From NCBI GenBank assembly GCA_022824265.1, contig JAJEAG010000073.1, positions 1-41,401 on the forward strand: a DNA stretch of 41,401 bases, read 5' to 3'. Position numbers and translations under genes: made by a program. This DNA is from Candidatus Poribacteria bacterium. GTDB lineage: Bacteria; Poribacteria; WGA-4E; WGA-3G. Position 1 is the first letter of the stretch. The number at the start of each line of letters is the position of its first letter. Below, one piece after another: positions 188-39,907 of the stretch. The notes under the pieces are model-generated. The model worked only from the letters and a program-made list of their open reading frames with translations. It was not told the origin of the DNA and searched no databases.

Positions 188-925
188 ATGCAATTACGTC
201 CATCTATATTCCACCAAACAATTGAAACAGCTATCTCATTCATCTATCCTGCACAATGTAGAGTCTGTGAGAATTTCATTGGTATTGAAACGATTCCTTA
301 TGTCTGTGATACCTGTTGGGATAATATTGATGTTATAGTTCCACCATGGTGTAAAATTTGCGGAATTCCAAATGCCGAAGGTATGTGTGCTGATTGTGCT
401 ACCAAACCGCCGCAGTATGGAAAACTTCGTACAATCGGTATTTACCATGGAACGCTTCAACACCTTATCCACCTATATAAATTTGAAAAACGAACTAATC
501 TTGTAAAACACCTTGGACAACTGATAATAGCAAATCTACCTAACGATCTTTCCTTTGATGAATATGATTATATTTTACCAATCCCAATTCACAAAAAACG
601 TTTGCGTGAAAGAGGTTTTAATCAAACCATGTTACTTGCTAACCACATTAGTAAAATGAGTAACAACCCGATTCTTATGGACGCACTAATTCGGGAAAAG
701 CATACATCTCCACAGAGTAGTTTGGATAGAGAAGCACGCCAAACGAATATAATAGGGGCATTCGCACTACGAAGGAGTGAAGTCATCCGAAATAAGAAAT
801 TACTTGTTCTTGATGATGTATATACCACAGGTGCTACAGTTCGTGAGGCAGTAAAAGTACTATGGAATGCAGACCCAATGGAAATAGATGTACTTACATT
901 GGCAAGAGCATTAAATCCTGTATGA
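188..925 (+). CDS. comF: ComF family phosphoribosyltransferase-like protein
   Basis: 245-residue protein of normal ComF length. The N-terminal third carries a double zinc-ribbon of Cys pairs (C24-x2-C27, C40-x2-C43, then a CKIC...CADC set). The C-terminal half is a type I PRTase fold with the PRPP-binding motif LDDVYTTGAT at about residues 208-217. The family is linked to DNA uptake in competent bacteria, but in most genomes its exact reaction is unproven. The ATG at 188 fits the family's N-terminus although the upstream Shine-Dalgarno is weak. The gene lies 87 bp upstream of smc on the same strand and may be co-transcribed with it. Confidence 0.88.
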   Translation: MQLRPSIFHQTIETAISFIYPAQCRVCENFIGIETIPYVCDTCWDNIDVIVPPWCKICGIPNAEGMCADCATKPPQYGKLRTIGIYHGTLQHLIHLYKFEKRTNLVKHLGQLIIANLPNDLSFDEYDYILPIPIHKKRLRERGFNQTMLLANHISKMSNNPILMDALIREKHTSPQSSLDREARQTNIIGAFALRRSEVIRNKKLLVLDDVYTTGATVREAVKVLWNADPMEIDVLTLARALNPV

Positions 926-1012
926 AACCAATAAGGTGTCTTTTTCGTATTAACAATTAGATTAACTAACTGATAACAAACTTGACGAAATGCAATTGGT
1001 AGGAGGCTAACT

Positions 1013-25772: not shown

Positions 25773-25802
25773 ATTATACAATATTTGCAAATGTATTGTC
25801 CA
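25773..25802 (-). promoter_or_regulatory. Promoter for TPR-like gene copy 1
   Basis: - strand TGGACA, 18 bases, TATAAT. Just downstream is TTCAGAACGA (+ strand, 25751-25760), which recurs beside the promoter at 29169. Confidence 0.6.
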
Positions 25803-25825
25803 TAATATTTGTGAGGTAATAAATA

Positions 25826-26266
25826 ATGTCAAAATCTGTATATTATAAAGTGTTGTTATCTGGTATAGATATCTCTGAATATTTACAAGATATAATCGGA
25901 ATTAATATGGATTCTGGTGAACCATGTTTATCAAATGATCATGAAATTACTATTGAATTAGATAATAGAGATTTGAATTTCTGTGCATTAAACGATGACA
26001 ATTTCTTTGTTCATAACAGGAATAATATCCAGGGCACTTTTCATAAATCAGGGTATGGCGCACCAATCGAAGTAATTGTATATGGTGATAATGAATATAC
26101 TAAAAAAGAATTATTTAAAGGTGTAGTAGTAAATAACCAAACTCGGATAGTTGATCAAATTACGCGTTTAGAATGTGTTAATTTCTTGTATAACATTAGT
26201 GTTGATCAACTTGAAAATATACTTACGAATTCAAACAAAAACGTAAGTAATCAAAGTTGTGAATAG
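25826..26266 (+). CDS. Hypothetical beta-rich protein
   Basis: 146 residues, GAGG 9 bases before ATG 25826. The pattern YKVLLSGIDISEYLQDIIG, then ITIELDNRDLNF and GAPIEVIVYGDNEY...LFKGVVVNN, is beta-rich. It loosely resembles N-terminal domains of phage late-control/baseplate (gpD-like) proteins, but no other tail gene is near, so this is weak. Its last 44 bases overlap the opposing gene at 26223-26591. Confidence 0.6.
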   Translation: MSKSVYYKVLLSGIDISEYLQDIIGINMDSGEPCLSNDHEITIELDNRDLNFCALNDDNFFVHNRNNIQGTFHKSGYGAPIEVIVYGDNEYTKKELFKGVVVNNQTRIVDQITRLECVNFLYNISVDQLENILTNSNKNVSNQSCE

Positions 26267-26591
26267 TTTTTCGTATTTCGATGAACTTTTTTCTTAATTC
26301 CGAATTGTTATTCTCCAATTCTAAAAATGTTGTTGGAACTTCATTATAGATGTTTTTCCTTAATCTGTAAAATTCTAAACCTAAGTCCAAAAATTGGTCA
26401 TATTGAATTATCACACTGTTTCTAAGATTTATTAAATCGGAAACAATGGTAAAAGAAGTATAATCATCATTAATCATTCTTTTGTATTTAACTATTTCGG
26501 GATTAGAAAGTGCCATTTTAGCGATTTGTTGTTTCATATCTTCCATGATAGATGGAATGTGTAAATCAATGATTCTAAGATCTTTGCTCAT
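26223..26591 (-). CDS. Hypothetical helical protein
   Basis: 122 residues from ATG 26591 (MSKDLRIIDLHIPSIMEDMK), with AGGAGGT 7 bases upstream. An in-frame upstream ATG would read through the structured leader and is rejected. All-alpha, charged, no motif recognised. Convergent 44-bp overlap with the gene ending at 26266. Confidence 0.65.
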   Translation of the reverse strand: MSKDLRIIDLHIPSIMEDMKQQIAKMALSNPEIVKYKRMINDDYTSFTIVSDLINLRNSVIIQYDQFLDLGLEFYRLRKNIYNEVPTTFLELENNNSELRKKFIEIRKTIHNFDYLRFCLNS

Positions 26592-26616
26592 TTGGGATAC
26601 CTCCTGTGAGCATTGC

Positions 26617-26699
26617 CAGGGTTTCGACCCTGTGGTGTATATTGTTCGGCACACTATACAACTACAGGATTTAGGTCGTTCTGTAGTTGTTGTGCCGAA
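26617..26699 (-). promoter_or_regulatory. Two-hairpin structured leader
   Basis: Upstream of the 26591 start. Hairpin 1: TTCGGCACA (26645-26653) / TGTGCCGAA (26691-26699), enclosing CAACTACAG (26659-26667) / CTGTAGTTG (26681-26689). Hairpin 2: CAGGGT (26617-26622) / ACCCTG (26627-26632) around a four-base loop (TTCG on +, CGAA on -). It ends 25 bases before the start codon. Confidence 0.55.
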
Positions 26700-26820
26700 T
26701 ATACCATATTTACTTGATGACGATAATTGTATCATATCAAAAATTAGACTTGATTAAATATTATCAGATATTGGGTTATATATCCAGTATATTTATATTT
26801 CACAAAAAGGAAATACAATT

Positions 26821-27348
26821 ATGAAAGAAAAAGGTTTTACGCAGGAAGATATAATTGGTGTCCCCAGATGCATAATTTACAAGTCTTCCGATAAAGGTTG
26901 GTTACATTTGACTGAAGAAGAACGTGAACGATTAGCTAGTATACAGACAAAAACAACAATTGGAATTTTGGATGGTGGTAATATTGCGTGGTGTATGGAA
27001 TCTGCGATTATATTATTAGCGTTGAATTTAAAACGTGCTATCAAAATATTTCATTATGGATCTGAAGTTGCCTATAAGACAAGTTTACCAGCACCGAATA
27101 CTCTTATGACTGTTTCTAAAATAGATGAAAATACGGATGAAATATTTGAGACTTATTGGTATGACATGATGTTGGATCAAGATATGCATGTTGTATCAAA
27201 GCAATATTTTCAAAGTTATATATCAAAGTTGAATAAAAATGATCTGGATACTGATACGATATCGACGAAGCATGTATCAAGTGGCGGATTTATGGATAAT
27301 GCACTTGAGCATGATATTGATATGTATAATATGAGTATGCGGAGGTAA
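26821..27348 (+). CDS. Hypothetical protein
   Basis: 175 residues, MKEKGFTQEDIIGVPRCIIY..., AAGGA 9 bases before the ATG. Mixed alpha/beta with a hydrophobic patch AIILLALNLKRAIKIF (about residues 60-76) and acidic C-terminus. No motif recognised. Its last 24 bases are the start of an 87-bp direct repeat, and originally it probably preceded the gene now at 27992 directly (the copied junction is retained on both sides). Confidence 0.65.
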   Translation: MKEKGFTQEDIIGVPRCIIYKSSDKGWLHLTEEERERLASIQTKTTIGILDGGNIAWCMESAIILLALNLKRAIKIFHYGSEVAYKTSLPAPNTLMTVSKIDENTDEIFETYWYDMMLDQDMHVVSKQYFQSYISKLNKNDLDTDTISTKHVSSGGFMDNALEHDIDMYNMSMRR

Positions 27349-27411
27349 TATGAAATATAATATGTCTTTTGGTGATATGAAGTATAAAAAGGTTTTTCTA
27401 AAAATTTTGAA
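27325..27411 (+). repeat. 87-bp direct repeat, left copy
   Basis: 87 bases that recur at 27967-28053 with two differences. It contains the end of the upstream gene, its downstream GGAGG, and the first 20 codons of the following gene. Confidence 0.9.
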
Positions 27412-27415
27412 GTAG
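27350..27415 (+). pseudogene. Truncated 5' copy of the gene at 27992
   Basis: Encodes MKYNMSFGDMKYKKVFLKIL then K and stop. The full gene at 27992 begins MKYSMSFGDMKYKKVFLKIL and continues. The break at 27411/27412 is the edge of the inserted segment. Confidence 0.8.
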
Positions 27416-27454
27416 TTTATTATATATTTAATGTATACTTACGGAGGTATTATT

Positions 27455-27670
27455 ATGGCTCGCAAGTTGGTTTATGAGGAAGATGGTGTTAAGAAGGTCG
27501 CATTAGACCTTGATAGGTTAGACAGTCTTACTGATGAAGATCTTGATCGCGCTCGCAGCTTTATCGCAGCGGCTGGCAAATTCGGTAAGATCCTTCGTGA
27601 TAGTAGGGTTTTCTTCGAATCCAATAGATCTAATGTAGTCGATCAAAGCGGATCTGAACTTACAGATTGA
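27455..27670 (+). CDS. 71-residue helical protein in convergent overlapping module
   Basis: Starts MARKLVYEEDGVKKVALDLD, with GGAGG 7 bases before ATG 27455 (strong). A helical central part (LTDEDLDRARSFIAAAGKFG) is followed by a polar tail. The last 153 bases lie antisense to the 3' part of the TPR-like gene 27518-27871, codon boundaries in register. It resembles the 25244-25411 frame in layout (TxEx..helix..F.. then polar tail). Function unknown. Confidence 0.6.
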   Translation: MARKLVYEEDGVKKVALDLDRLDSLTDEDLDRARSFIAAAGKFGKILRDSRVFFESNRSNVVDQSGSELTD

Positions 27671-27871
27671 TCTATTGTAGTATAGATCTAATGTATCTTT
27701 AGATTGTTTTATTGCTTGATTGAGTAGTTCTATTGCCTCATCGAATTTACCTTCTTCAGCGTATGTAATGGCTTGTTTGTTACATTCTTTGACAGAGTCT
27801 GTCGATTTTATATCTTTTATATATTCTTGATTGAGTATATCACGGATGGTTGGTTCTATATTATTATTCAT
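27518..27871 (-). CDS. TPR-like small protein, copy 2
   Basis: 117 residues. One clear TPR: NKQAITYAEEGKFDEAIELL then NQAIKQSKDTLDLYYNRSIC (about residues 31-72). The C-terminal RSIGFEENPTITKDL matches copy 1. AAGGA lies 9 bases before the ATG, and a TGGACA-N17-TATAAT promoter at 27909-27937 fits. The gene lies inside the 555-bp segment between the 87-bp direct repeats, together with the opposing 71-residue gene. Confidence 0.65.
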   Translation of the reverse strand: MNNNIEPTIRDILNQEYIKDIKSTDSVKECNKQAITYAEEGKFDEAIELLNQAIKQSKDTLDLYYNRSICKFRSALIDYIRSIGFEENPTITKDLTEFASRCDKAASAIKIFISKTV

Positions 27872-27908
27872 TTATTTGTTCCTTATTAGTTATTGTTTAT
27901 GATATAGT

Positions 27909-27937
27909 ATTATACTATATATAGGTTTGAATGTCCA
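27909..27937 (-). promoter_or_regulatory. Promoter for TPR-like gene copy 2
   Basis: - strand TGGACA, 17-base spacer containing CCTATATATAG, TATAAT. The -10 region is inside the inverted repeat ATATAGTA/TACTATAT. Confidence 0.65.
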
Positions 27938-27966
27938 GTAAATAGTTATTATTATATATATGAAAT

Positions 27967-28053
27967 TATAATATGAGTATGCGGAGGTAATATGAAATAC
28001 AGTATGTCTTTTGGTGATATGAAGTATAAAAAGGTTTTTCTAAAAATTTTGAA
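27967..28053 (+). repeat. 87-bp direct repeat, right copy
   Basis: Copy of 27325-27411. Here the reading frame of the downstream gene continues intact, so this is the functional junction. Confidence 0.9.
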
Positions 28054-28597
28054 AGAACATTCAAGTATGATGTCATATACGGACTTATCGTCAGTAGATG
28101 TAGAGTGGTGTTCTTATGAAAAATTGTTGTCAACTGACAAGTCCCCGTTACCAAATAAAAAAACAGTAAAATTGTATGTTTTGATGTTACCGATGGGAGT
28201 TGAAAATTTTGACGAATGGTTTCGAAGTCATGATTTAACATATTCTATTTTTTATAAAACTAATATCAGTTTAAGAGAAGATTCAATTATACAGATGGTT
28301 CGTGGTAGAGCATCTGTAAAAGAAATTGCCTCAAAGTTAAATAGTATTTTTGAATATTATGCAGAAGGTCATGTTATTAAAGATTGTGTTATTCAATATG
28401 AGAATATACCTAATCAATTATATGGTAAATTGGTTGGTGTTATAGAAACGTGTCGTAATGTAGACGGTAATTTTGATTTGTTTGAGGTTGCACAGGTTGC
28501 TCAAGAACTTAAATCATTTACCAATTCCGACTTAGATTATATAAGTAAGTTGCCACATCCAGATGAATGTGAATCTGAACCTATGAAACTTGATTGA
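27992..28597 (+). CDS. Hypothetical protein
   Basis: 201 residues, GGAGG 5 bases before ATG 27992. Mixed alpha/beta; VDVEWCSYEKLLSTDK and LPHPDECESEPMKLD at the end, no recognised motif or membrane segment. It is followed at 25 bp by the winged-helix-like gene at 28622, probably in the same transcript. Confidence 0.65.
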   Translation: MKYSMSFGDMKYKKVFLKILKEHSSMMSYTDLSSVDVEWCSYEKLLSTDKSPLPNKKTVKLYVLMLPMGVENFDEWFRSHDLTYSIFYKTNISLREDSIIQMVRGRASVKEIASKLNSIFEYYAEGHVIKDCVIQYENIPNQLYGKLVGVIETCRNVDGNFDLFEVAQVAQELKSFTNSDLDYISKLPHPDECESEPMKLD

Positions 28598-28621
28598 TAC
28601 AATTTTATTAAGGAGTATATT

Positions 28622-28864
28622 ATGGATCTAAAATTATTCGTGTTAGAAGAACTGGAAGGATTGAATGGTGAATGGTGTGATTTGAATTATTTATTGAGAA
28701 AAATCGGGCCTTCATTCACACCCAGTTTAAGTTTGTCGGATATAGGTGAATGTTTGGACGAACTTATAGATGAAGGTAAATGTATGCGTGATGAATTACA
28801 TATTGGGCTTCGTAGTAAAGTGTTCATTTTTCGGCTACGAAATACATTGACATCGATAAAATGA
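28622..28864 (+). CDS. Winged-helix-like small protein, copy 1
   Basis: 80 residues: MDLKLFVLEELEGLNGEWCD, LLRKIG, then LSDIGECLDELIDEGKC and KVFIFRL. Three helices then a beta hairpin, the layout of a small winged-helix DNA-binding domain (inference from pattern). AAGGAG precedes the ATG. A close paralog with the same leader lies at 29233. Confidence 0.65.
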   Translation: MDLKLFVLEELEGLNGEWCDLNYLLRKIGPSFTPSLSLSDIGECLDELIDEGKCMRDELHIGLRSKVFIFRLRNTLTSIK

Positions 28865-28886
28865 GTAAAAATAGAGGTAAAATAAT

Positions 28887-29090
28887 ATGCATTATGAAAT
28901 ACAGATTTCAGATATAGATTCACAAGTTTTCTTGGCAAAAAGAGGTGTAGATGATAATGGCAATTCAGTCGAGCTTAGCAGTGACGAGCTTGATAATATT
29001 GTTCATGGCTTGGAGGCTCTTTGTAGACTCCTGAAAATGCCTGGCATTAAGATTGTTGTTGATAGAGATGAGATTATCAAACATCGCTGA
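28887..29090 (+). CDS. Small hypothetical protein
   Basis: 67 residues: MHYEIQISDIDSQVFLAKRG, a Ser/Glu-rich helix, then a beta strand PGIKIVVDRDEIIKHR. GAGGT before ATG 28887. Base composition is a little less A+T-rich than its neighbours. Not recognised. A hairpin terminator follows 15 bp after the stop. Confidence 0.6.
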   Translation: MHYEIQISDIDSQVFLAKRGVDDNGNSVELSSDELDNIVHGLEALCRLLKMPGIKIVVDRDEIIKHR

Positions 29091-29099
29091 TTCTCATAT

Positions 29100-29162
29100 G
29101 AAATAACCGAGGGCAGGTATTGTCCGTCTACCCTCGGTTTGGCTAGTTCAGAACGACAATAC
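29100..29162 (-). ncRNA. Possible small RNA of about 60 nt
   Basis: The - strand promoter at 29169-29197 has no gene downstream. About 25 bases after its predicted start lies the 9-bp hairpin AACCGAGGG/CCCTCGGTT, followed by TTATTTC. A short hairpin-terminated RNA is the simplest reading. The same hairpin also suits a + strand terminator for the 28887 gene. Confidence 0.35.
29105..29139. terminator. Intrinsic terminator
   Basis: AACCGAGGG (29105-29113) and CCCTCGGTT (29131-29139) around a 17-base loop, followed by T on the + strand. It closes the + strand run 26821-29090. Confidence 0.6.
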
Positions 29163-29168
29163 AGTATT

Positions 29169-29197
29169 ATTATACTGTATGTGATATTTCATGTCCA
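29169..29197 (-). promoter_or_regulatory. Promoter without an obvious gene
   Basis: - strand TGGACA, exactly 17 bases, TATAAT. The -10 lies within the inverted repeat ATACAGTA/TACTGTAT. It shares TTCAGAACGA with the promoter at 25773. Confidence 0.6.
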
Positions 29198-29232
29198 GTA
29201 AATTGTAGTATCTAATTTTATTGGAGTATATT

Positions 29233-29457
29233 ATGGATCTAAAATTATTCGTGTTAGAAGAACTGGAAGGATTGAATGGTAAATGGTGTGATTTGGAGTA
29301 TTTATTGGGTAAAATCGCGCCTTCATTCACGCCCAGTTTACGTTTGTCAGATATAGGTGAATGTTTGGATGATTTTATTGACGAAGGTAAAGTTGAGAGG
29401 GGTGAAGTATATAGACGATTAAGGACTAATTTGTATATATTTCGGATTGTTTCATAA
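29233..29457 (+). CDS. Winged-helix-like small protein, copy 2
   Basis: 74 residues: MDLKLFVLEELEGLNGKWCD, LEYLLGKIA, RLSDIGECLDDFIDEGKV, LYIFRIV. A paralog of 28622-28864; the duplication includes the Shine-Dalgarno and about 20 bases of leader. The C-terminal strand region has diverged most. Confidence 0.65.
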   Translation: MDLKLFVLEELEGLNGKWCDLEYLLGKIAPSFTPSLRLSDIGECLDDFIDEGKVERGEVYRRLRTNLYIFRIVS

Positions 29458-29477
29458 ATTTGGTAAAGGGTGGTAAT

Positions 29478-29741
29478 ATGCCTTATTTTTTCAAACACAT
29501 AAATACAAAGAAAATGAGGTCAAGATACGATAAATACAAAGAAATAATTTATAATATAGATAAATTTCGAGAAATACACAGAATTAATAATATCATATCA
29601 GCCGTCCGTATCTGTGATGATGAAACCATAAAAATCGCTATATGTAAAACGGATTCAGGTGCAAGATATTTGATGGAATGTATTTTGTGTCAAAAAGAAG
29701 TGGATTATAAAGAATTAATTTACCGGGAAAGAAGTATATAG
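29478..29741 (+). CDS. Small hypothetical protein
   Basis: 87 residues from MPYFFKHINTKKMRSRYDKY (GGTGG a few bases upstream). Basic N-terminus, then IISAVRICDDETIKIAIC and a Cys pair in MECILCQKE. The lone CxxC-like pair is not enough to call a zinc site. It follows the winged-helix gene by 20 bp. Confidence 0.55.
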   Translation: MPYFFKHINTKKMRSRYDKYKEIIYNIDKFREIHRINNIISAVRICDDETIKIAICKTDSGARYLMECILCQKEVDYKELIYRERSI

Positions 29742-29785
29742 TTATTGGATAGTTTGTATGTCTTATAGCAAGTGTTATATTTGCT

Positions 29786-30010
29786 ATAAAAATAAGGCTC
29801 TAAATTGAATATTGTATGATACAACACTGCAATTCAGAGCCTGTGGCTTGACTTGGTTTGATCTGATCTATATTGGTTTGGTCTGACTTGACTTGACTTG
29901 ACTTGACTTGGTTTGGTCTGACTTGACTTGATCCGATTGGGCACATATAGGTCCGTATCGTCATGTTACCAAGGCTTGTAATTATTGTATTCTGGTAAAT
30001 TTACCAGAAT
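29786..30010 (-). ncRNA. Putative structured ncRNA with AAGTC pentamer repeats
   Basis: It has its own promoter (30017-30045) and a strong terminator at 29795-29842: AGGCTCT/AGAGCCT with AATTG/CAATT and TGTTGTAT/ATACAATA inside, then TTATTTTT. The 5' end is a long hairpin from a 42-bp palindrome. The middle (- strand) has about twelve AAGTC-type pentamers mixed with CAGACCAAACC. A 55-codon frame runs through it but lacks a good ribosome site, and its product is simple-sequence Gln/Ser. Confidence 0.55.
29861..29932. repeat. Pentamer tandem repeat (CTTGA on +)
   Basis: Runs of ACTTG/CTTGA units, interrupted twice by GGTTTGGTCTG. It lies inside the putative ncRNA. Confidence 0.85.
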
Positions 30011-30020
30011 ACAATAATTA
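29979..30020. repeat. 42-bp perfect palindrome
   Basis: Arms of 21 bases with no loop, centred at 29999/30000 (centre GGTAAATTTACC). It overlaps the -10 box and start region of the ncRNA promoter, so it could be an operator as well as the 5' hairpin of the RNA. Confidence 0.9.
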
Positions 30021-30045
30021 TACCACATAGAATATGAATTGTCCA
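30017..30045 (-). promoter_or_regulatory. Promoter for putative ncRNA
   Basis: - strand TGGACA, 17 bases, TATAAT. It begins 2 bp beyond the stop codon of the 57-residue gene at 30048-30221. Confidence 0.65.
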
Positions 30046-30047
30046 AT

Positions 30048-30221
30048 TTATTGTGAAATTAACTCCAGTTCTGATTCAAGTTTTTGTTTTTCGCGTATCA
30101 ATCGCTTTTTTTCAGCTTTCTTTAACGCAAGTTGTCTTTGGTTAGATTTTAAATCAACCGCATTTTGAGATTTTTGCTTTTGCATTTGATCTCTTGATAA
30201 TGAACGATGTTTTTTTGACAT
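30048..30221 (-). CDS. 57-residue basic coiled-coil protein
   Basis: MSKKHRSLSRDQMQKQKSQN..., then LALKKAEKKRLIREKQKL and ESELELISQ. It is very Lys/Gln/Arg-rich with a helical heptad-like C-terminal half. CGGAGG stands 7 bases before ATG 30221, which makes this a convincing gene despite its size. It probably binds nucleic acid (inference from charge). The leader has two hairpins and a promoter. Confidence 0.65.
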   Translation of the reverse strand: MSKKHRSLSRDQMQKQKSQNAVDLKSNQRQLALKKAEKKRLIREKQKLESELELISQ

Positions 30222-30283
30222 TGTAATGCCTCCGATTTAGAGTTCAGATAATTTGTATTTAAACGCTATAGATGGCTGAAAAT

Positions 30284-30346
30284 TGATGGCAGTATGTAAC
30301 GGTGCTGCCATCAGGTTTCGGAAGGGTTATTGCAACCCTTCCGAAA
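30284..30346 (-). promoter_or_regulatory. Two-hairpin leader of the 57-residue gene
   Basis: A 13-bp perfect hairpin (TTTCGGAAGGGTT 30316-30328 / AACCCTTCCGAAA 30334-30346) right after the -10 box, then GATGGCAG/CTGCCATC about 15 bases later. Position and strength suit an attenuator or RNA-protecting leader. Confidence 0.6.
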
Positions 30347-30374
30347 TTATACACTATATATAGGAAATTGTCTA
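30346..30374 (-). promoter_or_regulatory. Promoter of the 57-residue gene
   Basis: - strand TAGACA, 17-base spacer containing CCTATATATAG (shared with the promoter at 27909), TATAAT. Confidence 0.6.
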
Positions 30375-30405
30375 ATTTATTTTTCATATATTTTGGAGTC
30401 GGTTT

Positions 30406-30762
30406 ATGTATTTTTGTTTTATATTGAGGCATAATGAAGTTATTGGATATTCCAGGTTGAGGCAAAAAACTCCGAATGGTTGTAAGATTTTCATAACACG
30501 CAAATTAAGAGAACTGAAATATTTAGGTTGTTCTTCATGGTATTTTGTTAGAGATAATCCATATTGGGCTTTGCGGAGCAGAATAATTAAAAAGTTCTGT
30601 CTAGTTAGTGTTGAAGATCTTGATATGATCGATATTGATATTCGTGATAGGGATATGATAGAGGTTTATTTAGTGCCAGATTTTGGTTATGAAGATCCAA
30701 TTGATCAGCAAGGTTTAATAGAACTAATTAATGTATCTAAAAATGAAATAATTTTAAGTTGA
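30406..30762 (+). CDS. Hypothetical protein
   Basis: 118 residues: MYFCFILRHNEVIGYSRLRQ, a basic middle, and an acidic C-terminal half (VEDLDMIDIDIRDRDMIEVY). GGAG 8 bases before the ATG. No motif recognised. It lies 31 bp before the methyltransferase gene and may be its operon leader gene, possibly a control protein, though no HTH is evident. Confidence 0.55.
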   Translation: MYFCFILRHNEVIGYSRLRQKTPNGCKIFITRKLRELKYLGCSSWYFVRDNPYWALRSRIIKKFCLVSVEDLDMIDIDIRDRDMIEVYLVPDFGYEDPIDQQGLIELINVSKNEIILS

Positions 30763-30793
30763 AAATGAATGAAGTTATATGAGGATAAATTAT

Positions 30794-31648
30794 ATGCATC
30801 ATGTTTGGAGAAAAAACACAGTAAATAGTGGTGGATCATTAGATAAATTCTATACAAAAACAGAAACTGTTACAAAATGCTTAAATGAGCTAAATAATAT
30901 GCCATATAATTATGATTGTGTTATCGAACCTTCTGCGGGAAATGGTGCATTCTATCATCAAATTAAACATTCTAATAAAATAGGTATTGATATAGATCCT
31001 GGACATGAAGATATTATAAAGGCGGATTGGTTGACTTATAGAATTAGTGCTGACCATAAGTGTGTATTAATTGTTGGGAATCCGCCTTTCGGCAAATATC
31101 ATAGTATGTCATCACAATTTATATGTCGTTCATTTTTGTTCAATAATGTTCAAACAATCGCTTTTATTTTACCGAATGTTTATAGAAAGCATACCAGACA
31201 AAAAATATTACCTATAAATTGGAGGATTTTGTCTATAATGGAATTAGGCAAAAACTGTTTTTATGTGGATAATAAACCTTATCATATACCATCAAGTTTC
31301 TTTATATTTGATAAATCAACGGGTACAGACTTAAGGGAGGATACCAGTAAATATAAAGATTCTGATGATTTTACATTTTCCGACAGAGAAGATTTTGATA
31401 TATTTGTGTTTGGATCTTCACCGACTAAGATTACTAAGAATCCTAAACCAAATAATAGGGGTTATTTTTTGAAATCAAATATACCTATAGACGATCTGAT
31501 TAATAAAATCAAATCTATTGATTGGGTTGGGAACTCTTGTGCTAGTGGTGGTGTTTATTGGTTGACAAAGTATGAATTTTTAAAACAGTATATGGATCAT
31601 CATGAATCAAATAAGTCTGTGGGCAACACTGGATTATATTTTGGATAA
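30794..31648 (+). CDS. N6-adenine-type DNA methyltransferase (NPPF motif)
   Basis: 284 residues. SAM-binding motif I VIEPSAGNGAF (about 43-53), acidic strand end IGIDIDPG (63-70) and catalytic motif IV GNPPFG (95-100). Order I-then-IV with NPPF places it in the gamma-like class of adenine methyltransferases. The N-terminal SLDKFYTKTETVTKCL resembles viral and phage-type enzymes. Start 30794 has GAGGA 8 bases upstream. It overlaps the next frame by 47 bases, a common arrangement in type II R-M pairs; the C-terminal GNSCASGGVYWLTK segment may contact the target. Confidence 0.75.
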   Translation: MHHVWRKNTVNSGGSLDKFYTKTETVTKCLNELNNMPYNYDCVIEPSAGNGAFYHQIKHSNKIGIDIDPGHEDIIKADWLTYRISADHKCVLIVGNPPFGKYHSMSSQFICRSFLFNNVQTIAFILPNVYRKHTRQKILPINWRILSIMELGKNCFYVDNKPYHIPSSFFIFDKSTGTDLREDTSKYKDSDDFTFSDREDFDIFVFGSSPTKITKNPKPNNRGYFLKSNIPIDDLINKIKSIDWVGNSCASGGVYWLTKYEFLKQYMDHHESNKSVGNTGLYFG

Positions 31649-32186
31649 TATTGATATTGTCTATAATGTGAAAATACTCGTTGAATCTATAAAAAATGAA
31701 TTAATTGATTTAGTATTTGACCATTCTATATCTGAGTCAGAATTTTATAAAATCAGTAGCATACTAACACCACAGTGTAGAAGCCCATTATGGGAGAATT
31801 ATTTCATCAGAAAATATGGTTGTGAAAAAATTAGCAAGGATTTGAATAACGGTGATTTTAAGAAAGATGGGAAATACTATGAGTACAAATGTTCTGGTTA
31901 TAATCAAACTAATACATTAAATATAATTCAGATTAGACCGTGGCAAAATTGTGATTATATTATTCAATTTATCTATAATGATGAGCCTATTACATTTATA
32001 CTGACACATGACGAAATGATATTAGAAATGGACATAATGAAAGCATCGTGTGCCCATGGCACACCAGATGCAATAAAAAATAACGATAATGTGGAATATA
32101 AAATAACATTGAAAAAAGATTCAATAGACTGGTATAGATGGATTGATAAATATAATAAGTTATTAGAATTTTTAGTTATACAATAA
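31602..32186 (+). CDS. Probable restriction endonuclease partner (D-ExK protein)
   Basis: 194 residues. Motif candidates: Asp85, then Glu94-Tyr-Lys96 in GDFKKDGKYYEYKCSG, a D-x8-ExK spacing compatible with a PD-(D/E)xK nuclease active site. It is followed by NIIQIRPWQNCDYIIQFIYN, an alternating beta core. The gene overlaps the methyltransferase by 47 bases, the classic context for a type II endonuclease. The fold assignment is inference. The start is uncertain: ATG 31602 lacks a Shine-Dalgarno, and GTG 31668 is an alternative that keeps the motif. Confidence 0.55.
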   Translation: MNQISLWATLDYILDNIDIVYNVKILVESIKNELIDLVFDHSISESEFYKISSILTPQCRSPLWENYFIRKYGCEKISKDLNNGDFKKDGKYYEYKCSGYNQTNTLNIIQIRPWQNCDYIIQFIYNDEPITFILTHDEMILEMDIMKASCAHGTPDAIKNNDNVEYKITLKKDSIDWYRWIDKYNKLLEFLVIQ

Positions 32187-32208
32187 ATTGTGCTTTGGGG
32201 GTGGTCGT

Positions 32209-32451
32209 ATGACTTCTAAATTGACACTTTTACTTGAAAAGCAACCCGAAGGTGGTTTTACGATACAATGTCGGGAGTTGCCTGAATTGCTTACAGAATG
32301 TGATTCTCTGGACGATATGATGGATAATGTCATCGATGCTCTTAATGCGGTGATTGATGTATATAAACGTAAAAGACGAGAGTTGCCTAAATTAATGAAT
32401 GAAGATGGTGAGATAGAATTTCAAATAATGTTTAGGCATTTATGGGTTTAA
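32209..32451 (+). CDS. HicB-like antitoxin-family protein
   Basis: 80 residues: MTSKLTLLLEKQPEGGFTIQ, then CRELPELLTECDSLDDMMDN and VIDALNAVIDVYK. This is the partial-RNase-H-like HicB fold (beta hairpin with EGGF, then the ELPExxTeGdSLddaxxN helix). HicB normally neutralises a HicA mRNA-interferase encoded next to it. I see no HicA here, so it is a solo member or part of a different pair. GGGGGTGG precedes ATG 32209. The second half lacks an obvious HTH or RHH. Confidence 0.7.
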   Translation: MTSKLTLLLEKQPEGGFTIQCRELPELLTECDSLDDMMDNVIDALNAVIDVYKRKRRELPKLMNEDGEIEFQIMFRHLWV

Positions 32452-32483
32452 AATTTTGTATCAGTTAAATAAAAACAGAATAA

Positions 32484-33026
32484 ATGAATATTGAACAGGC
32501 ATATAACATACTAGGCATAGATAGTAATACGATTTATGATTATGCTCGCAGCAGGTTTAGGGATCTTGCTAAACAATATCATCCAGACAAGGGCGGTTCT
32601 AAACATGCATTTCAACAGATAAATAATGCATGGTCTCTAGTGAAAGACTTACTCCCGGACAAAGATGTATTAGGTAATCCACACATTTATAAATCTTATA
32701 ATGCAGATTTACCGTTTGTTGTTCTAAAAAAATCTGACTTAGGTTATCACCGATGGGCTTCAGTGATACACAATTATGAAAATGCACCTGATTTTGAAGG
32801 TAACTGGCTGCGATACAATAAGATACGGGGCGGAGAATTTCATTTGGAATGCACTTATAACATACTTCGATATTATAATTTTCAAGACGAAGATTACTGT
32901 TTGATTCATGGCAGGAATTGTGTCATAGATATTGTATCTCAACGAGAATTCAATATGAGGTATGCTGGCAAAAACATGTGGAAGGTTCAGTCAAATATAA
33001 ATTATAATTATGATAGTGAAATATGA
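32484..33026 (+). CDS. J-domain protein (island copy)
   Basis: 180 residues. J domain at 1-60 with HPD at 33-35 (AKQYHPDKGG) and FQQINNAWSLV; the rest (120 residues, Trp/Tyr-rich) is unknown. J domains recruit DnaK to clients; viral and plasmid J proteins often help replication or assembly. The Shine-Dalgarno is weak. It is unlike the chromosomal J-domain gene at 22010 outside the J domain. Confidence 0.8.
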   Translation: MNIEQAYNILGIDSNTIYDYARSRFRDLAKQYHPDKGGSKHAFQQINNAWSLVKDLLPDKDVLGNPHIYKSYNADLPFVVLKKSDLGYHRWASVIHNYENAPDFEGNWLRYNKIRGGEFHLECTYNILRYYNFQDEDYCLIHGRNCVIDIVSQREFNMRYAGKNMWKVQSNINYNYDSEI

Positions 33027-33037
33027 GGTATGTAATT

Positions 33038-33436
33038 ATGGAAAATTTTAGGTATGAAAACTTGGTGGGTAAAATACAACAACTTAACAGTAAAATTGAT
33101 ATATTACCAAATTCAGGTAAATCAAAATATTTGAGACAAATTGCGGATGACTTATATGATGTATTAGGTGGGAATGTTACGGCATCGGGTTTATATGTAA
33201 CGGATATTTTCCTAAAATTACATAAGATTGCTGATAAATTTGACAAAGTTACAGAGTTAGAAGTTTTGCCAGATACAACAAGACGCATCAACTCAGAAAT
33301 TGTGAAAGCCAATAATGAATTGTTGTTAGCAATTGAAAAGGACAAAGATTTATTTACAATTCCTGAACACCTTAGAAAAAACAAACCGAACAGACTTATT
33401 CTAAAATTGATCCAAAAGCAAGGCTTAAGATTATAA
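33038..33436 (+). CDS. Hypothetical helical protein
   Basis: 132 residues, start MENFRYENLVGKIQQLNSKI (GAGGT 8 bases before ATG 33038). All-alpha and charged; no motif recognised. The stop lies inside the opposing gene at 33396-33620 (41-bp convergent overlap). Confidence 0.6.
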   Translation: MENFRYENLVGKIQQLNSKIDILPNSGKSKYLRQIADDLYDVLGGNVTASGLYVTDIFLKLHKIADKFDKVTELEVLPDTTRRINSEIVKANNELLLAIEKDKDLFTIPEHLRKNKPNRLILKLIQKQGLRL

Positions 33437-35062: not shown

Positions 35063-35096
35063 TACATTGTTCAGGATAATGTGACTAATATATTAT

Positions 35097-35169
35097 TGGA
35101 GCGGTGGGGACTTGAATCCCAATTTACCGAGTGCTAACCACGGTGTTTTACCAATTAAACTACCGCCCC
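35097..35169 (-). tRNA. tRNA-like gene, anticodon position TAG
   Basis: 73 bases with exact cloverleaf spacing (7/2/4/8/4/1/5/7/5/5/5/7/5/7/1). Acceptor GGGGCGG/CCGCTCC; D-arm GTTT/AAAC with loop AATTGGTA; T-loop TTCAAGT. The anticodon stem CCGTG/CTCGG has a T-T mismatch and the T-stem an A-C mismatch at the usually invariant G53-C61. Loop GTTAGCA gives TAG at 34-36. No encoded CCA. It may be degenerate. Confidence 0.6.
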
Positions 35170-35182
35170 ATGTATATATTAT

Positions 35183-35255
35183 TGGAGCGGTGGGGAATCG
35201 AACCCCAAACTCCCAGGTGTCAAAACTGGTGTTTTACCAATTAAACTACCGCCCC
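35183..35255 (-). tRNA. tRNA-like gene, anticodon position TGA (TTG if shifted by one)
   Basis: 73 bases with the same exact cloverleaf spacing and the same first 29 bases as its neighbour 13 bp away. The T-arm TGGGG-TTCGATT-CCCCA is perfect. The anticodon stem CCAGT/CCTGG has one T-C mismatch; loop TTTGACA gives TGA at 34-36, whereas the TTTTGAC context resembles tRNA-Gln(TTG). There is no long variable arm, so not a normal tRNA-Ser. Confidence 0.65.
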
Positions 35256-35273
35256 ATGTATATTAGTCATCAT

Positions 35274-35317
35274 ACAAAAGAATATTTGTATACACAAATA
35301 TATAGATATTCTTTTGT
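35274..35317. repeat. 12-bp inverted repeat
   Basis: ACAAAAGAATAT (35274-35285) / ATATTCTTTTGT (35306-35317) around a 20-base A+T loop, between the tRNA-like pair and the transposase. Could be a terminator or leader hairpin; not assignable to an IS end. Confidence 0.6.
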
Positions 35318-35475
35318 ACTTATTATATGTTTGTGTTGGGTAAATTGGGAGGCGGCAACCCCCCAATAAAATGAAAAATCTAATCTAAGTTGTACTTTTT
35401 CTGATTTTTCACGTGGTTTTACAATTATACTTGAATTCATCAGAAAAAGCAAATAATTTTTTTGAAGGAGATCTG

Positions 35476-36363
35476 ATGGATTTATTGTCAGTTATGGAAC
35501 GCTTTCCGGATCAAGAATCGTGTATATCTCATTTGGAGAATGTCAGATGGGGTAATGATCCGCAATGTCCGCATTGTGATAGTTTTGAAGTATATAATAG
35601 AGGTGATACGAACTTAGGTCGTATCGGTAGATGGAATTGTCAAAGTTGTAGTGCTACTTTCAAAGTTACGGCTGGCACGATATTTCATGGAACCAAAATT
35701 GCTTTACAGAAATGGTTTCTGGCAATTTCGCTTGTATTGAATGCTAAGAAAGGATTATCCAGTCATCAATTGTCTCGTGATCTCAAATTAAATCAGAGAA
35801 CAGCGTGGCGTATGGTGACTTGTATTCGTGCTGAAATGGCACGTAAAGGCAGTGTTTTATTGAGAGGTATTATCGAGGCAGATGAAACTTATATCGGTGG
35901 TAAACCTCGCAGATCTAATAATAAGGTTGACAACGAACCCGCAAAACGTGGTCGTGGAACAAACAAAGATGCGATTATCGGAGTTGTTGAACGTGGTGGC
36001 AAAGTCGCTGCGGAGTTGGCTACGGATCTTTCGGGTAAATCACTTTTAGAATTTATCAGTCGTTATGTAGATATAGATGAATCTGAATTAATGACAGATG
36101 AATTCAGGTCATATCAACGTGTTGGGAAGGAAATGAAACACAGTATTATCAATCATCAGGTGCAGTATGTGGATGGTAATATTCATACGAACACGATAGA
36201 GGGGTTCTGGAGTTTATTGAAACGTGCTTGGTATGGTTCACATCATCATTATCAGACGACATATACGCCATTGTATGTAGCGGAGGCGTGTTATAAATAC
36301 AACTACCGTGATATAGATGAGGTGTTTGATAAATTTCTCAATGAGAGTATGATTTTGAATTGA
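35476..36363 (+). CDS. IS1595-family (ISXO2-like) transposase
   Basis: 295 residues, full length. N-terminal zinc ribbon C31-P-H-C34 ... C55-Q-S-C58, then the DDE-type catalytic core: D136 in ADETYIGG, D208 in LMTDEFRSY, and the HTNTIEGFW block with N239 and E242. GAAGGAG stands before ATG 35476; an in-frame earlier start is not needed. Flanking terminal inverted repeats could not be defined by eye. The last codons (DKFLNESMILN) recur as a remnant at 36675. Confidence 0.9.
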   Translation: MDLLSVMERFPDQESCISHLENVRWGNDPQCPHCDSFEVYNRGDTNLGRIGRWNCQSCSATFKVTAGTIFHGTKIALQKWFLAISLVLNAKKGLSSHQLSRDLKLNQRTAWRMVTCIRAEMARKGSVLLRGIIEADETYIGGKPRRSNNKVDNEPAKRGRGTNKDAIIGVVERGGKVAAELATDLSGKSLLEFISRYVDIDESELMTDEFRSYQRVGKEMKHSIINHQVQYVDGNIHTNTIEGFWSLLKRAWYGSHHHYQTTYTPLYVAEACYKYNYRDIDEVFDKFLNESMILN

Positions 36364-37217: not shown

Positions 37218-37645
37218 CTTCTAATCGAACCAATTTGGAATAGAAACAACAAAACTGTCATTGCGAACATGATCCCGACTGCACTTCTAATCGAACCAAT
37301 TTGGAATAGAAACGTTTACTGATAGCAGATAACGCAACGCGACTGAAACCTTCTAATCGAACCAATTTGGAATAGAAACTCTGCAGCAATTCAACCGTCT
37401 GATGATATTCAACCCTTCTAATCGAACCAATTTGGAATAGAAACTGACGATCCATCTCAAAAGCATATTGCAACTGTATCTTCTAATCGAACCAATTTTG
37501 AATAGAAACTTAAATACATTTACATCATCAACAAGTGTTGCTTTAACTTCTAATCGAACCAATTTGGAATAGAAACCCTTACATAATCGCCACCGCCTTT
37601 ATTGCCAGATACAACCTTCTAATCGCACCAATTTGCAATTAATAT
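37218..37645 (+). CRISPR. CRISPR array, 7 repeats, 6 spacers, no cas genes in view
   Basis: 30-base repeat, beginning CTTCTAATCGAACC and ending GGAATAGAAAC. Repeats start at 37218, 37284, 37350, 37415, 37480, 37547 and 37616; spacers are 36, 36, 35, 35, 37 and 39 bases. Repeat 5 has one change, and the last repeat is degenerate from its 11th base. The decayed end on the right and the promoter on the left both place the leader on the left, giving + strand transcription. The GAAAC 3' end resembles type I/III repeats. No cas gene lies in the 41 kb. Confidence 0.97.
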
Positions 37646-37689: not shown

Positions 37690-37774
37690 ACGTTGTTATA
37701 GATGAATTGTGTTGTAATTGAAGTTGTCAAAGAAAAGTCAAAGAAAATACAATGAGAATCAAGTACATGTCAAT

Positions 37775-37803
37775 TTGTAATTTATTTTCGTATATTCTAT
37801 AAT
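37775..37803 (+). promoter_or_regulatory. Promoter of the tRNA-like array
   Basis: TTGTAA (37775-37780), 17 bases, TATAAT (37798-37803), 27 bp before the first unit. Confidence 0.6.
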
Positions 37804-37829
37804 TGAAGAATCGTTAAACACGATGCTAT

Positions 37830-37900
37830 GGGGGTGTCGGCTGGTGCCGACCAAGGACCTATCATTCTTTTGGTTTCGGGTTCGATTCCCGACACCTCCA
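37830..37900 (+). tRNA. tRNA-like unit A1
   Basis: Acceptor GGGGGTG/CACCTCC, T-arm TCGGG-TTCGATT-CCCGA. In place of a D-arm is a tight TCGGC-TGGT-GCCGA hairpin. Possible anticodon arm AAGGA-CCTATCA-TTCTT (C at 33). Probably non-canonical. Confidence 0.5.
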
Positions 37901-37935
37901 CACCGTGTTTATCGATAATCAAACACCTAAAATAC

Positions 37936-38001
37936 GGGGCAGTAGTGGACTATAATTTTGGGTTAGGGCCAAATGATGGGGTTAGATTCCCCACTGCTCT
38001 A
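37936..38001 (+). tRNA. tRNA-like unit B1
   Basis: 66 bases. Acceptor GGGGCAG/CTGCTCT, T-arm TGGGG-TTAGATT-CCCCA, anticodon arm TTTGG-GTTAGGG-CCAAA (anticodon position TAG). D-arm reduced to TAGT-GG-ACTA. Confidence 0.5.
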
Positions 38002-38044
38002 TATCAGTATTTGATAGATTTGTAATCGATAAACACGGCATTAT

Positions 38045-38114
38045 GGGGGTGTCGGCTGGTGCCGAGCAAGAGCTTCTCATTCTTAGCTTTCGGGTTGGAT
38101 TCCCGACACCTCCA
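38045..38114 (+). tRNA. tRNA-like unit A2
   Basis: 70 bases. As A1 but with anticodon arm AAGAG-CTTCTCA-TTCTT: U33 present, anticodon TCT (Arg-type). T-loop TTGGATT departs from the usual TTCGATT. Confidence 0.5.
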
Positions 38115-38157
38115 CACCGTGTTTAACGATTTACTAATCATCAAACACCTAAAATAC

Positions 38158-38230
38158 GGGGCAGTAGTTTAACAAGCAAAATATTCAGGGTCGCCACCTA
38201 AAGTTTAGGGTGCAAGTCCCTACTGCTCCA
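38158..38230 (+). tRNA. tRNA-like unit B2
   Basis: 73 bases, the only array unit with a full D-arm (GTTT-AACAAGCA-AAAT, lacking the GG of the D-loop). Loop GTCGCCA suggests anticodon CGC. T-arm TAGGG-TGCAAGT-CCCTA has G at position 55. Its 5' half resembles the two tRNA-like genes at 35.1 kb. Confidence 0.55.
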
Positions 38231-38272
38231 TAAGAGTGTTTGACTATTTACAACCGTAAAACACGGCATTAT

Positions 38273-38342
38273 GGGGGTGTCGGCTGGTGCCGAGCAAGAG
38301 CTTCTCATTCTTAGCTTTCGGGTTGGATTCCCGACACCTCCA
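38273..38342 (+). tRNA. tRNA-like unit A3
   Basis: Identical to A2 over all 70 bases although the surrounding arms differ. The outer helix is the longest, 11 bp. Confidence 0.5.
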
Positions 38343-38377
38343 TGCCGTGTTTATCGATAATCAAACACGTAAAATAC

Positions 38378-38443
38378 GGGGCAGCAGTGGACTATAAGTC
38401 TGAATTAGCACCAGATGATGGTGTTCGATTCCCCACTGCTCCA
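38378..38443 (+). tRNA. tRNA-like unit B3
   Basis: 66 bases like B1. Anticodon arm TCTGA-ATTAGCA-CCAGA with one mismatch, anticodon position TAG again. The T-stem has one T-C mismatch. Confidence 0.45.
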
Positions 38444-38486
38444 TATCAGTATTTGATAGATTTATAATCATCAAATACGGTGTCAT

Positions 38487-38555
38487 GGAGGTGACAGGTT
38501 TGTGATAATTGGGCTTACCATTCTAATATATCGGGTTCGATTCCCGACACCTCCA
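38487..38555 (+). tRNA. tRNA-like unit A4
   Basis: 69 bases. Perfect acceptor GGAGGTG/CACCTCC and perfect T-arm TCGGG-TTCGATT-CCCGA; the central region is divergent and no clean anticodon arm is seen. Confidence 0.45.
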
Positions 38556-38591
38556 CACCATGATTGATGATTTTTATTCACAACAATATAT

Positions 38592-38644: not shown

Positions 38645-39907
38645 TTATGGCTGTGTAAATCTGTTAGCAACTTGCGTTAAATCTAATATATCAACCCTAC
38701 CATCTTGATTTACATCTGCTTCAGATGTGGTTCTACCTAAATCATTTGCTATGATTACCAAGTCAAGTATATTTACTGTACCGTCTTGGTTTATATCTTC
38801 AATAAGACTGAGAAATTTTGGGTTTGGCATCAGTATTCCATTGTGAATTTCGTCCCACTGAAAGAAATCTTTGTTATCAACTTTATAGATAATCACGTGA
38901 TTATATTGGTCAATAAGTGTCTGAGGTGCGTGATTGTCGATCATATATTGATGTAGGTCGTAATGTATACGATAATCAGTACGTGTTTTGTTATAGAATT
39001 CTATGAACATAGTTTTGAATTTGCCGAATGCGTTACAGTCGTATAGGTAGTTGGCTTGCATGACTTTGTTTGTTATCATATAATTCCGTGAATATTCATA
39101 GGCTTTTCTTCTTAGATTTATTCGGTTTATGAGTACGTCTTTAATATTTTCATTATTGGCAAATAGGTTATGATATTGATGTTCAGGGTCAACTTCTGCA
39201 TATTTTTCGTATGTGAAATCATCCATTTCAAAACCGCCATTAGGTATATCTGATGCGATATAGTATCTTGCGTATTTGTGGAAGTTATCAAGGTCTGAAA
39301 ATCCGCCTTTAGTGCAAGGTCCGCCCATATCAATTACACCTAATGGTTTATGTATGGATTCAGTCCAGAATTTTAGAAAATCATTTGCGTGTTTTCTATT
39401 TAGTTGAAATTCAATTAATGCGCCGCCTTCGGTGCCATGTCCATTATACATAAAATGATGTTCGGAATCAGGGTGTTTGTTTGAGAGGTATGCTGATATG
39501 TCCATAAAAGACGATTTTAAGAATTTACTTCTTTCATTTTTTAGTTCTTTTGATGGCATATTTGTATATTTTCGTATTGCATATTGTTCTCTGTATGCAA
39601 TTTTATCAGCATCGCTTATATTATGTATATATCCGTATGCTGGGTTATAGTCGTTTGGGAATTCGTATAGTTGGACAGATTTTGTTTCTTCCCATATAGC
39701 AACTTCATAAAACTTTAAAAACGGAGTTTCTTTTATAGGTACAGCTTGTGTCCATCCACCAGTAGATGTAAATGGCATCCATTCTGTCGTAACACGGACT
39801 GCACGTAACATTATATTGTGATTTTTGGATGCTAGGGATAATTGTTTGATTCCGAATGTTATCATAATCAATAAAATTAGTATAAAATATATCTTACGAT
39901 TCATCAT
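38645..39907 (-). CDS. Secreted clan-CD-like cysteine peptidase with C-terminal dockerin
   Basis: 420 residues. Signal peptide (IYFILILLIMITFGI, residues 6-20). The catalytic-like dyad of the clostripain/caspase clan is suggested by His157 in MYNGHGTEGG and Cys198 in VIDMGGPCTKGG, each after a hydrophobic strand. The last 60 residues are a type I dockerin with two calcium loops, DINQDGTVNILDL and DVNQDGRVDILDL. The protein is probably exported and attached to a cohesin partner. The peptidase call rests on the two motifs only. In Poribacteria such dockerin tails are common (established impression, not checked). Confidence 0.65.
   Translation of the reverse strand: MMNRKIYFILILLIMITFGIKQLSLASKNHNIMLRAVRVTTEWMPFTSTGGWTQAVPIKETPFLKFYEVAIWEETKSVQLYEFPNDYNPAYGYIHNISDADKIAYREQYAIRKYTNMPSKELKNERSKFLKSSFMDISAYLSNKHPDSEHHFMYNGHGTEGGALIEFQLNRKHANDFLKFWTESIHKPLGVIDMGGPCTKGGFSDLDNFHKYARYYIASDIPNGGFEMDDFTYEKYAEVDPEHQYHNLFANNENIKDVLINRINLRRKAYEYSRNYMITNKVMQANYLYDCNAFGKFKTMFIEFYNKTRTDYRIHYDLHQYMIDNHAPQTLIDQYNHVIIYKVDNKDFFQWDEIHNGILMPNPKFLSLIEDINQDGTVNILDLVIIANDLGRTTSEADVNQDGRVDILDLTQVANRFTQP

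Follow-up and report, generated by a model that had tools for sequence, protein, structure and literature searches.

The window analysed here, the whole 41,401-nucleotide stretch of a Candidatus Poribacteria contig, carries an array of seven alternating tRNA-like units (A1 B1 A2 B2 A3 B3 A4), whose bodies lie at 37830-38555 and are separated by gaps of approximately 35-45 nt (Table 1). The A units have the acceptor GGGGGTG/CACCTCC and the B units GGGGCAG/CTGCTCC, and the strict alternation described in an earlier sequence-only reading is borne out, apart from the variant acceptor of A4, which alone starts GGAGGTG. That reading was also right that the acceptor and T stems are kept; as for the D-arms, which it called abnormal, they are indeed short, but most retain a GG loop (TAGT-GG-ACTA, TCGGC-TGGT-GCCGA, ACA-GGTT-TGT) and that of B2 is near normal. 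ARAGORN calls four of the seven units, and only B2 passes the gathering score of the Rfam tRNA model (RF00005). Promoter elements precede A1, a T-run follows A4 and there are no internal T-runs, so that the array appears to form a single transcript. Some damage is evident: C56 is changed in B1, A2 and A3, and G3 is lost in A4. Units A2 and A3, reported earlier to have identical bodies within different outer arms, do so and are recent copies.

Table 1. Coordinates of the array, its putative signals and two related tRNA genes in the window
Feature	Position	Strand	Description	Evidence
Related tRNA gene	35097-35169	-	GGGGCGG/CCGCTCC, G3:U70, anticodon UAG	R3 match 35082-35182, E 4e-10
Related tRNA gene	35183-35255	-	GGGGCGG/CCGCTCC, G3:U70, anticodon UGA, full D-arm	
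Putative array promoter	37774-37803	+	TTTGTAATT upstream element and TATAAT -10 (37798-37803)	Same spacing before 5' arm in several singles; conserved between orthologous sites
Outer-helix arms around every unit	37809-38574	+	Every spacer contains a unit's 3' arm followed by the 5' arm of its neighbour	Inverted repeats I1 and I2; folding; arm table
Unit A1	37830-37900	+	GGGGGTG...CACCTCC A; anticodon UAU (C33), G3:U70, A73	R3 match 37805-37924, E 2e-12
Unit B1	37936-38001	+	D-arm TAGT-GG-ACTA; anticodon UAG, G3:U70, A73; T-loop C56 to A	R3 match 37910-38023
Unit A2	38045-38114	+	Anticodon UCU, G3:U70, A73; C56 to G	R3 E 5e-13
Unit B2	38158-38230	+	D-arm near-normal; anticodon CGC (Ala), G3:U70, A73	ARAGORN; Rfam tRNA above gathering score; R3 match 38135-38252
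Unit A3	38273-38342	+	Body as A2, outer arms differ	R3 E 8e-11
Unit B3	38378-38443	+	Anticodon UAG, G3:U70, A73	R3 match 38357-38468
Unit A4	38487-38555	+	Anticodon UAC; A3:U70, the sole modelled unit without G3:U70	R3 E 4e-13
Candidate array terminator	38562-38579	+	3' arm of last unit into T-run	Sequence; same arrangement in most single-copy relatives

A CRISPR array with at least six copies of the repeat CTTCTAATCGAACCAATTTGGAATAGAAAC occupies positions 37218-37640 and ends approximately 170 bp short of the first tRNA-like unit's array; among the window proteins examined, none was recognised as Cas. Coupling of the units to CRISPR was considered and dropped, there being none at the single-copy loci described below, and a search for a phage or plasmid origin of the array gave no match. 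Directly downstream, a protein with a C-terminal dockerin type I domain is encoded on the minus strand (38645-39907). Further upstream, the region 25800-33400 contains mostly unmatched open reading frames together with genes for a DnaJ-domain protein and a phage-type DNA methyltransferase (phrog_5172), and may be a mobile element.

A dispersed family of single-copy cassettes

A covariance model built from the array and five relatives (R1) gives strong matches to single copies within the same genus (five in G007, three in G014, two in G016 and one in G013), and also finds one single copy in G028, which belongs to a neighbouring genus, as well as a diverged copy in G004. The family has 12 single copies at unrelated sites in five Poribacteria genomes, and the genes adjoining them are unrelated from site to site. 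The usual cassette consists of TTTGTAATT...TATAATT, a few bases, the 5' arm (typically AACCGTCAAACAC or AACCGCTGAACATC), the tRNA body and the 3' arm, which mostly runs into a T-run; several of these relatives have TTTGTAATT at -31 to -33, and in them TATAATT is as far from the 5' arm as in the array. At one locus (L003, about 1195-1236) a second copy of the promoter (TTTGGTGTTTTATTTCTAATTCGGTGGGTATAATCGTATAAC) is present approximately 250 nt upstream of the unit, with no obvious unit behind it.

A second model (R3), made from the 12 singles alone and without window sequence, finds A1-A4 in the window with E values of 8e-11 to 4e-13, and B1-B3 at about 1e-12 when each stretch is searched alone, the B units being hidden in a whole-window search because of their overlapping arms. 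The scores of B1-B3 (54-58 bits) overlap those of ordinary tRNAs of other phyla, which reach 55.6 bits; the assignment of the B units therefore rests on array context and arms as well as on score, and B3 and the two tRNA genes near 35 kb are indistinguishable from tRNAs by score alone. Matches of at least 58 bits are confined to genus g1 and G028 among the 387 genomes searched, and neither these genomes nor an exact-pattern scan of genome contigs yielded a family member beyond the lineage. We are highly confident of the family, of its structure and of the selection on its single copies.

The two tRNA genes near 35 kb are enclosed together by a single 11-bp outer helix (35259-35269 with 35082-35092). 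Within 35096-36363, this UGA/UAG pair with G3:U70 adjoins an IS1595-type transposase, and in G004:C41 (L132) a transposase of this type likewise has a unit on either side, one of the two with a Gly GCC anticodon (893-999, minus strand). Mobility by IS1595 was set aside, as no terminal repeats were recognised that clearly enclose transposase and tRNAs at the 35.1-kb pair or at the G004 units.

Folding predicts an outer helix around all seven units of the array, in agreement with the claim that spacer arms pair across every unit. The further claim, that the arms change together and the helix is selected, fails on the array alone and holds for the family. The array arms are so alike that own arms pair hardly better than swapped ones (10.6 against 10.1 of 13), with 864 of 5040 permutations as good, and the array by itself thus cannot show covariation. 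Among the singles, in contrast, permuted arms match the pairing of the own arms in 0 of 100000 trials, two-sided changes occur in nine of the 16 outer pairs, and the covariation score is reached in 0 of 500 shuffles and lies above that of all slid versions; with all 19 modelled units, ten of the 16 pairs have two-sided changes. Conservation of the outer pairing in relatives, whose absence was to have refuted the sequence-only reading, is thus found.

One site, flanked by two sulfotransferase-like genes, is shared by two species (G007:C152 and G014:C185). Their 74-nt bodies are 100% identical, in a neighbourhood with an identity of 78% across 3.8 kb, or of 86% across 2.2 kb; if rate variation is ignored, 74 bases would stay unchanged against such a background with a probability of approximately 1e-8 to 1e-5. 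The promoter and terminator are conserved, and the outer helix shows one compensatory change, with G-C in the first or second species replaced by A-U in its counterpart. The singles are shown, at the level of sequence comparison, to be under purifying selection. In six relatives (G001, G003, G004, G005, G010 and G017) the matched ends of these sulfotransferase-like genes are only about 40 nt apart, so that the simplest history is a gain of the cassette and its later retention.

These observations bear on the possibility that the units are a dispersed repeat or pseudogene family, in which decaying tRNA-Ala copies spread with their flanks and the outer helix is a by-product. The empty syntenic sites, which imply a gain of approximately 480 bp, the degenerate array units, the patchy distribution and the similarity of downstream flanks between unrelated loci are all compatible with it. 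The identical orthologous body, the conserved promoter and terminator, the compensatory change and the strong covariation across singles count against it, and already make it unlikely for the singles; we consider it unlikely overall. The window array may nevertheless be an amplified, partly decaying branch, with the singles as the best-preserved members.

Anticodon arm and probable alanine identity

The units do not lack an anticodon: all bodies have a 5-bp anticodon stem and a 7-nt loop, N-U-U-N-N-C-A, and the stem covaries, with two-sided changes in all five pairs across 19 units. The sequence-only reading had overlooked this arm, as well as the G3:U70 pair with A73 and the loop's pattern of variation, in which U33, U34 and C37 are conserved and changes fall chiefly at positions 35-36; these two features point to tRNAs with alanine identity whose anticodons have been re-programmed. 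In 21 units, U33 and U34 are each present in 20, C37 in 19 and A38 in 17. The anticodons, in a tally that counts the orthologous pair twice, are UGA (six aligned units and one 35-kb gene), UAG (three and one 35-kb gene), UCU and UGU (two each), and UGG, UAU, UAC, UCA, UGC and CGC (once each). Nineteen of the 21 are non-alanine anticodons, the alanine ones being those of B2 (CGC) and L052 (UGC). A register shifted by +1 would give a purine at position 37 in all units, but was rejected because the stem pairing does not support it (slide +2).

The acceptors tell a different story from the anticodons. Of the 19 modelled units, 18 have G3:U70, including all 12 singles, the exception being A4, and the discriminator is A73 throughout the 19 aligned units; the acceptor pairs at 5:68 and 6:67, unlike G3:U70, swap freely. 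Among 34 ordinary host tRNAs, just the two alanine tRNAs have G3:U70, and other matches to the G3:U70 pattern in 85 Poribacteria genomes are tRNA-Ala, bar two odd tRNAs and one chance match. One odd tRNA (L057; G024:C1:4847567-4847637) has a 3-nt D-loop (GCTCC-GGG-GGAGC) and the Ile anticodon GAU, without the outer helix of the family, and another tRNA-like match (L156; G034:C70:24347-24415) has an unusual anticodon loop. The B acceptor is that of the ordinary tRNA-Ala(CGC) of the lineage, GGGGCAG/CTGCTCC. Loss of the normal tRNA-Ala(CGC) from the host genome was considered and rejected: an assembly gap is the likely reason for its absence, since relatives have it in a Ser tRNA cluster that was not found here either.

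Alanyl-tRNA synthetase (AlaRS) recognises G3:U70 and ignores the anticodon (PMC11415595, PMC7609411), so that a copy of tRNA-Ala can exchange its anticodon and stay chargeable, and repeated anticodon change of tRNA-Ala copies is what the units look like. In the eight genomes examined, a single canonical AlaRS is encoded per genome. Neither AlaX nor a second AlaRS was found in these genomes, where the shared editing-domain family, with members assigned by length, is carried only by AlaRS and ThrRS genes and no free-standing AlaX is therefore seen. Alanine identity in vivo is probable.

The conserved G3:U70 also weighs on a reading of the units as decoys or sponges, in line with the decoys suggested in the sequence-only reading: abundant stable tRNA mimics that would sequester anticodon nucleases, toxins or further proteins that bind tRNA. 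Such a role would be suited by a shared scaffold with differing anticodon loops, by protected ends, by amplification into an array and by the CRISPR array directly upstream in the window, and tRNA-targeting nucleases and their evasion by phage tRNAs are established (PMC10264068, PMC11555353). A decoy, however, would not need G3:U70, which is kept while most other variable positions drift; moreover, no CRISPR array is present at the singles loci examined, no nuclease or toxin gene is repeatedly linked, and phage or plasmid copies were not found. We regard this role as distinctly unlikely.

Position 37 is almost always a purine in host tRNAs, in contrast to the C37 of most units, and this departure could mean poor or no decoding. 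Ordinary tRNAs exist in the host for most codons of the family anticodons, so the units are not needed for decoding. An ordinary tRNA cluster, odd only through weakness of annotation, would explain why ARAGORN and Rfam accept some of the array, but it is hard to reconcile with non-alanine anticodons on G3:U70 acceptors, the selected outer helix, C37 and the redundancy with the normal tRNA set, and is highly improbable. The putative dedicated promoter and terminator, the selected outer helix and the conserved relatives likewise support the earlier statement that this is not an ordinary tRNA cluster, and its suggestion that the region could produce processed tRNA-like RNAs.

A proposed model for alanine delivery to other codons

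The explanation we favour, to which we give about an even chance, is a clade-specific family derived from tRNA-Ala, charged by AlaRS and delivering alanine inefficiently to non-alanine codons, with both charging and decoding inferred from the features above. An origin from tRNA-Ala would account for the retention of the AlaRS marks (G3:U70 and A73) while positions 35-36 changed to many non-alanine values and U34 stayed almost invariant; the near-invariant U34 with varied 35-36 looks like a fit to decoding of different, mostly four-codon boxes. A single cassette would be transcribed from its own promoter, and its outer helix would close the RNA ends and, with the T-run, act as the stem of an intrinsic terminator, which would leave the tRNA within its own terminator loop. 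The window has seven such cassettes in tandem, served by a single putative promoter and a single candidate terminator. The bodies would be freed by RNase P together with 3' processing and would receive CCA, and the sole canonical AlaRS would charge them with alanine.

The codons read by the charged bodies would be chiefly those for Ser, Thr, Pro, Leu, Val, Arg and Ile, and decoding would probably be weak, given a pyrimidine at position 37 and a small D-arm. G33 has been suggested to weaken decoding in a known mistranslating tRNA (PMC11415595), and by analogy the non-standard position 37 would do so here. Any benefit would come from low-level alanine substitution, and the cassette family may let the cell insert alanine at non-alanine codons; that decoding is the main role appears, on these features, an evenly balanced proposition. 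Weakened decoding features (C37, small D-arm) with alanine identity kept would also fit non-ribosomal alanine donors for aminoacyl-tRNA-dependent ligases, or regulators or titrators of AlaRS, and enzymes that use aminoacyl-tRNAs outside translation are known (PMC12945691). Such roles leave the covarying anticodon stem, the conserved U33 and U34 and the spread of anticodons unexplained, however, and the genes adjoining singles differ between sites; they seem quite improbable.

In its strongest form, alanine delivery would amount to a genome-encoded, multi-codon substitution system of duplicated and dispersed autonomous cassettes. Through the normal AlaRS it would place alanine, at a controlled low level, at codons for Ser, Thr, Pro, Leu, Val, Arg and Ile and even at UGA, with the outer helix gating maturation, which we put forward tentatively and as somewhat less than an even proposition. 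If true, the anticodon blindness of AlaRS, exploited to sample many codon boxes, would give a simple means of programming mistranslation or reassigning codons, and the placing of a tRNA inside its own terminator an unusual RNA gene architecture.

Comparison with known systems

The A units share the acceptor GGGGGTG/CACCTCC with the tmRNA (RF00023) of the lineage and have nearly the same T-arm, and alanine identity is common to both. However, the units have an anticodon arm, no mRNA-like domain or pseudoknots, bodies of 66-74 nt and scores below the RF00023 cut-off, and a tmRNA or permuted tmRNA was rejected, the weak Rfam matches being due to the shared acceptor and T-arm. The real tmRNA of the genome is at G000:C42:51168-51521. 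Elsewhere in the same genome an 88-nt mini-tmRNA (G000:C17:31114-31201, minus strand; L121, L131) passes the RF00023 cut-off without an mRNA-like domain. Matches to plant microRNA families (MIR9555 and others) are far below cut-off and caused by long inverted repeats, and tRNA-Sec gives a weak match only, the real tRNA-Sec lying beside selB in G000:C34.

Allo-tRNAs and their like have 8/4 or 9/3 acceptor branches and other identities, whereas most Poribacteria units are 7/5. Allo-tRNAs and other non-canonical tRNAs resemble the units in their non-standard cloverleaf and in being found in uncultured bacteria (PMC7609411). Most singles end like an intrinsic terminator, with a stem and a T-run, but here the 'loop' is a tRNA of approximately 70 nt with its linkers.

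Few families of identity-swapped tRNAs are known in bacteria, and the best studied is tRNA-ProX, which is co-encoded with a special synthetase. The tRNA-ProX types of Streptomyces and Kitasatospora (tRNA-ProA, -ProN and -ProT) also combine a mismatch of identity and anticodon with accessory genes, and have proline identity, A34 anticodons (AGC, AUU and AGU) and a dedicated co-encoded ProRSx (PMC11415595). The Poribacteria family, in contrast, has alanine identity, U34 anticodons for many boxes and an outer helix with putative promoter and terminator, and no partner synthetase was seen beside the units when neighbouring open reading frames were scanned by eye. Each has an odd base by the anticodon, A33 in tRNA-ProX (PMC11415595) and C37 in the Poribacteria family. 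Parallels in identity are the mitochondrial tRNA-Ala(UAG) of A. gossypii (PMC7609411) and the yeast CUG-Ala tRNA (PMC11415595), which are G3:U70 alanine tRNAs whose anticodons could change because AlaRS does not read them, and UAG is also an anticodon of the Poribacteria family. In those systems one codon family has been reassigned, whereas in the host ordinary tRNAs for most such codons remain.
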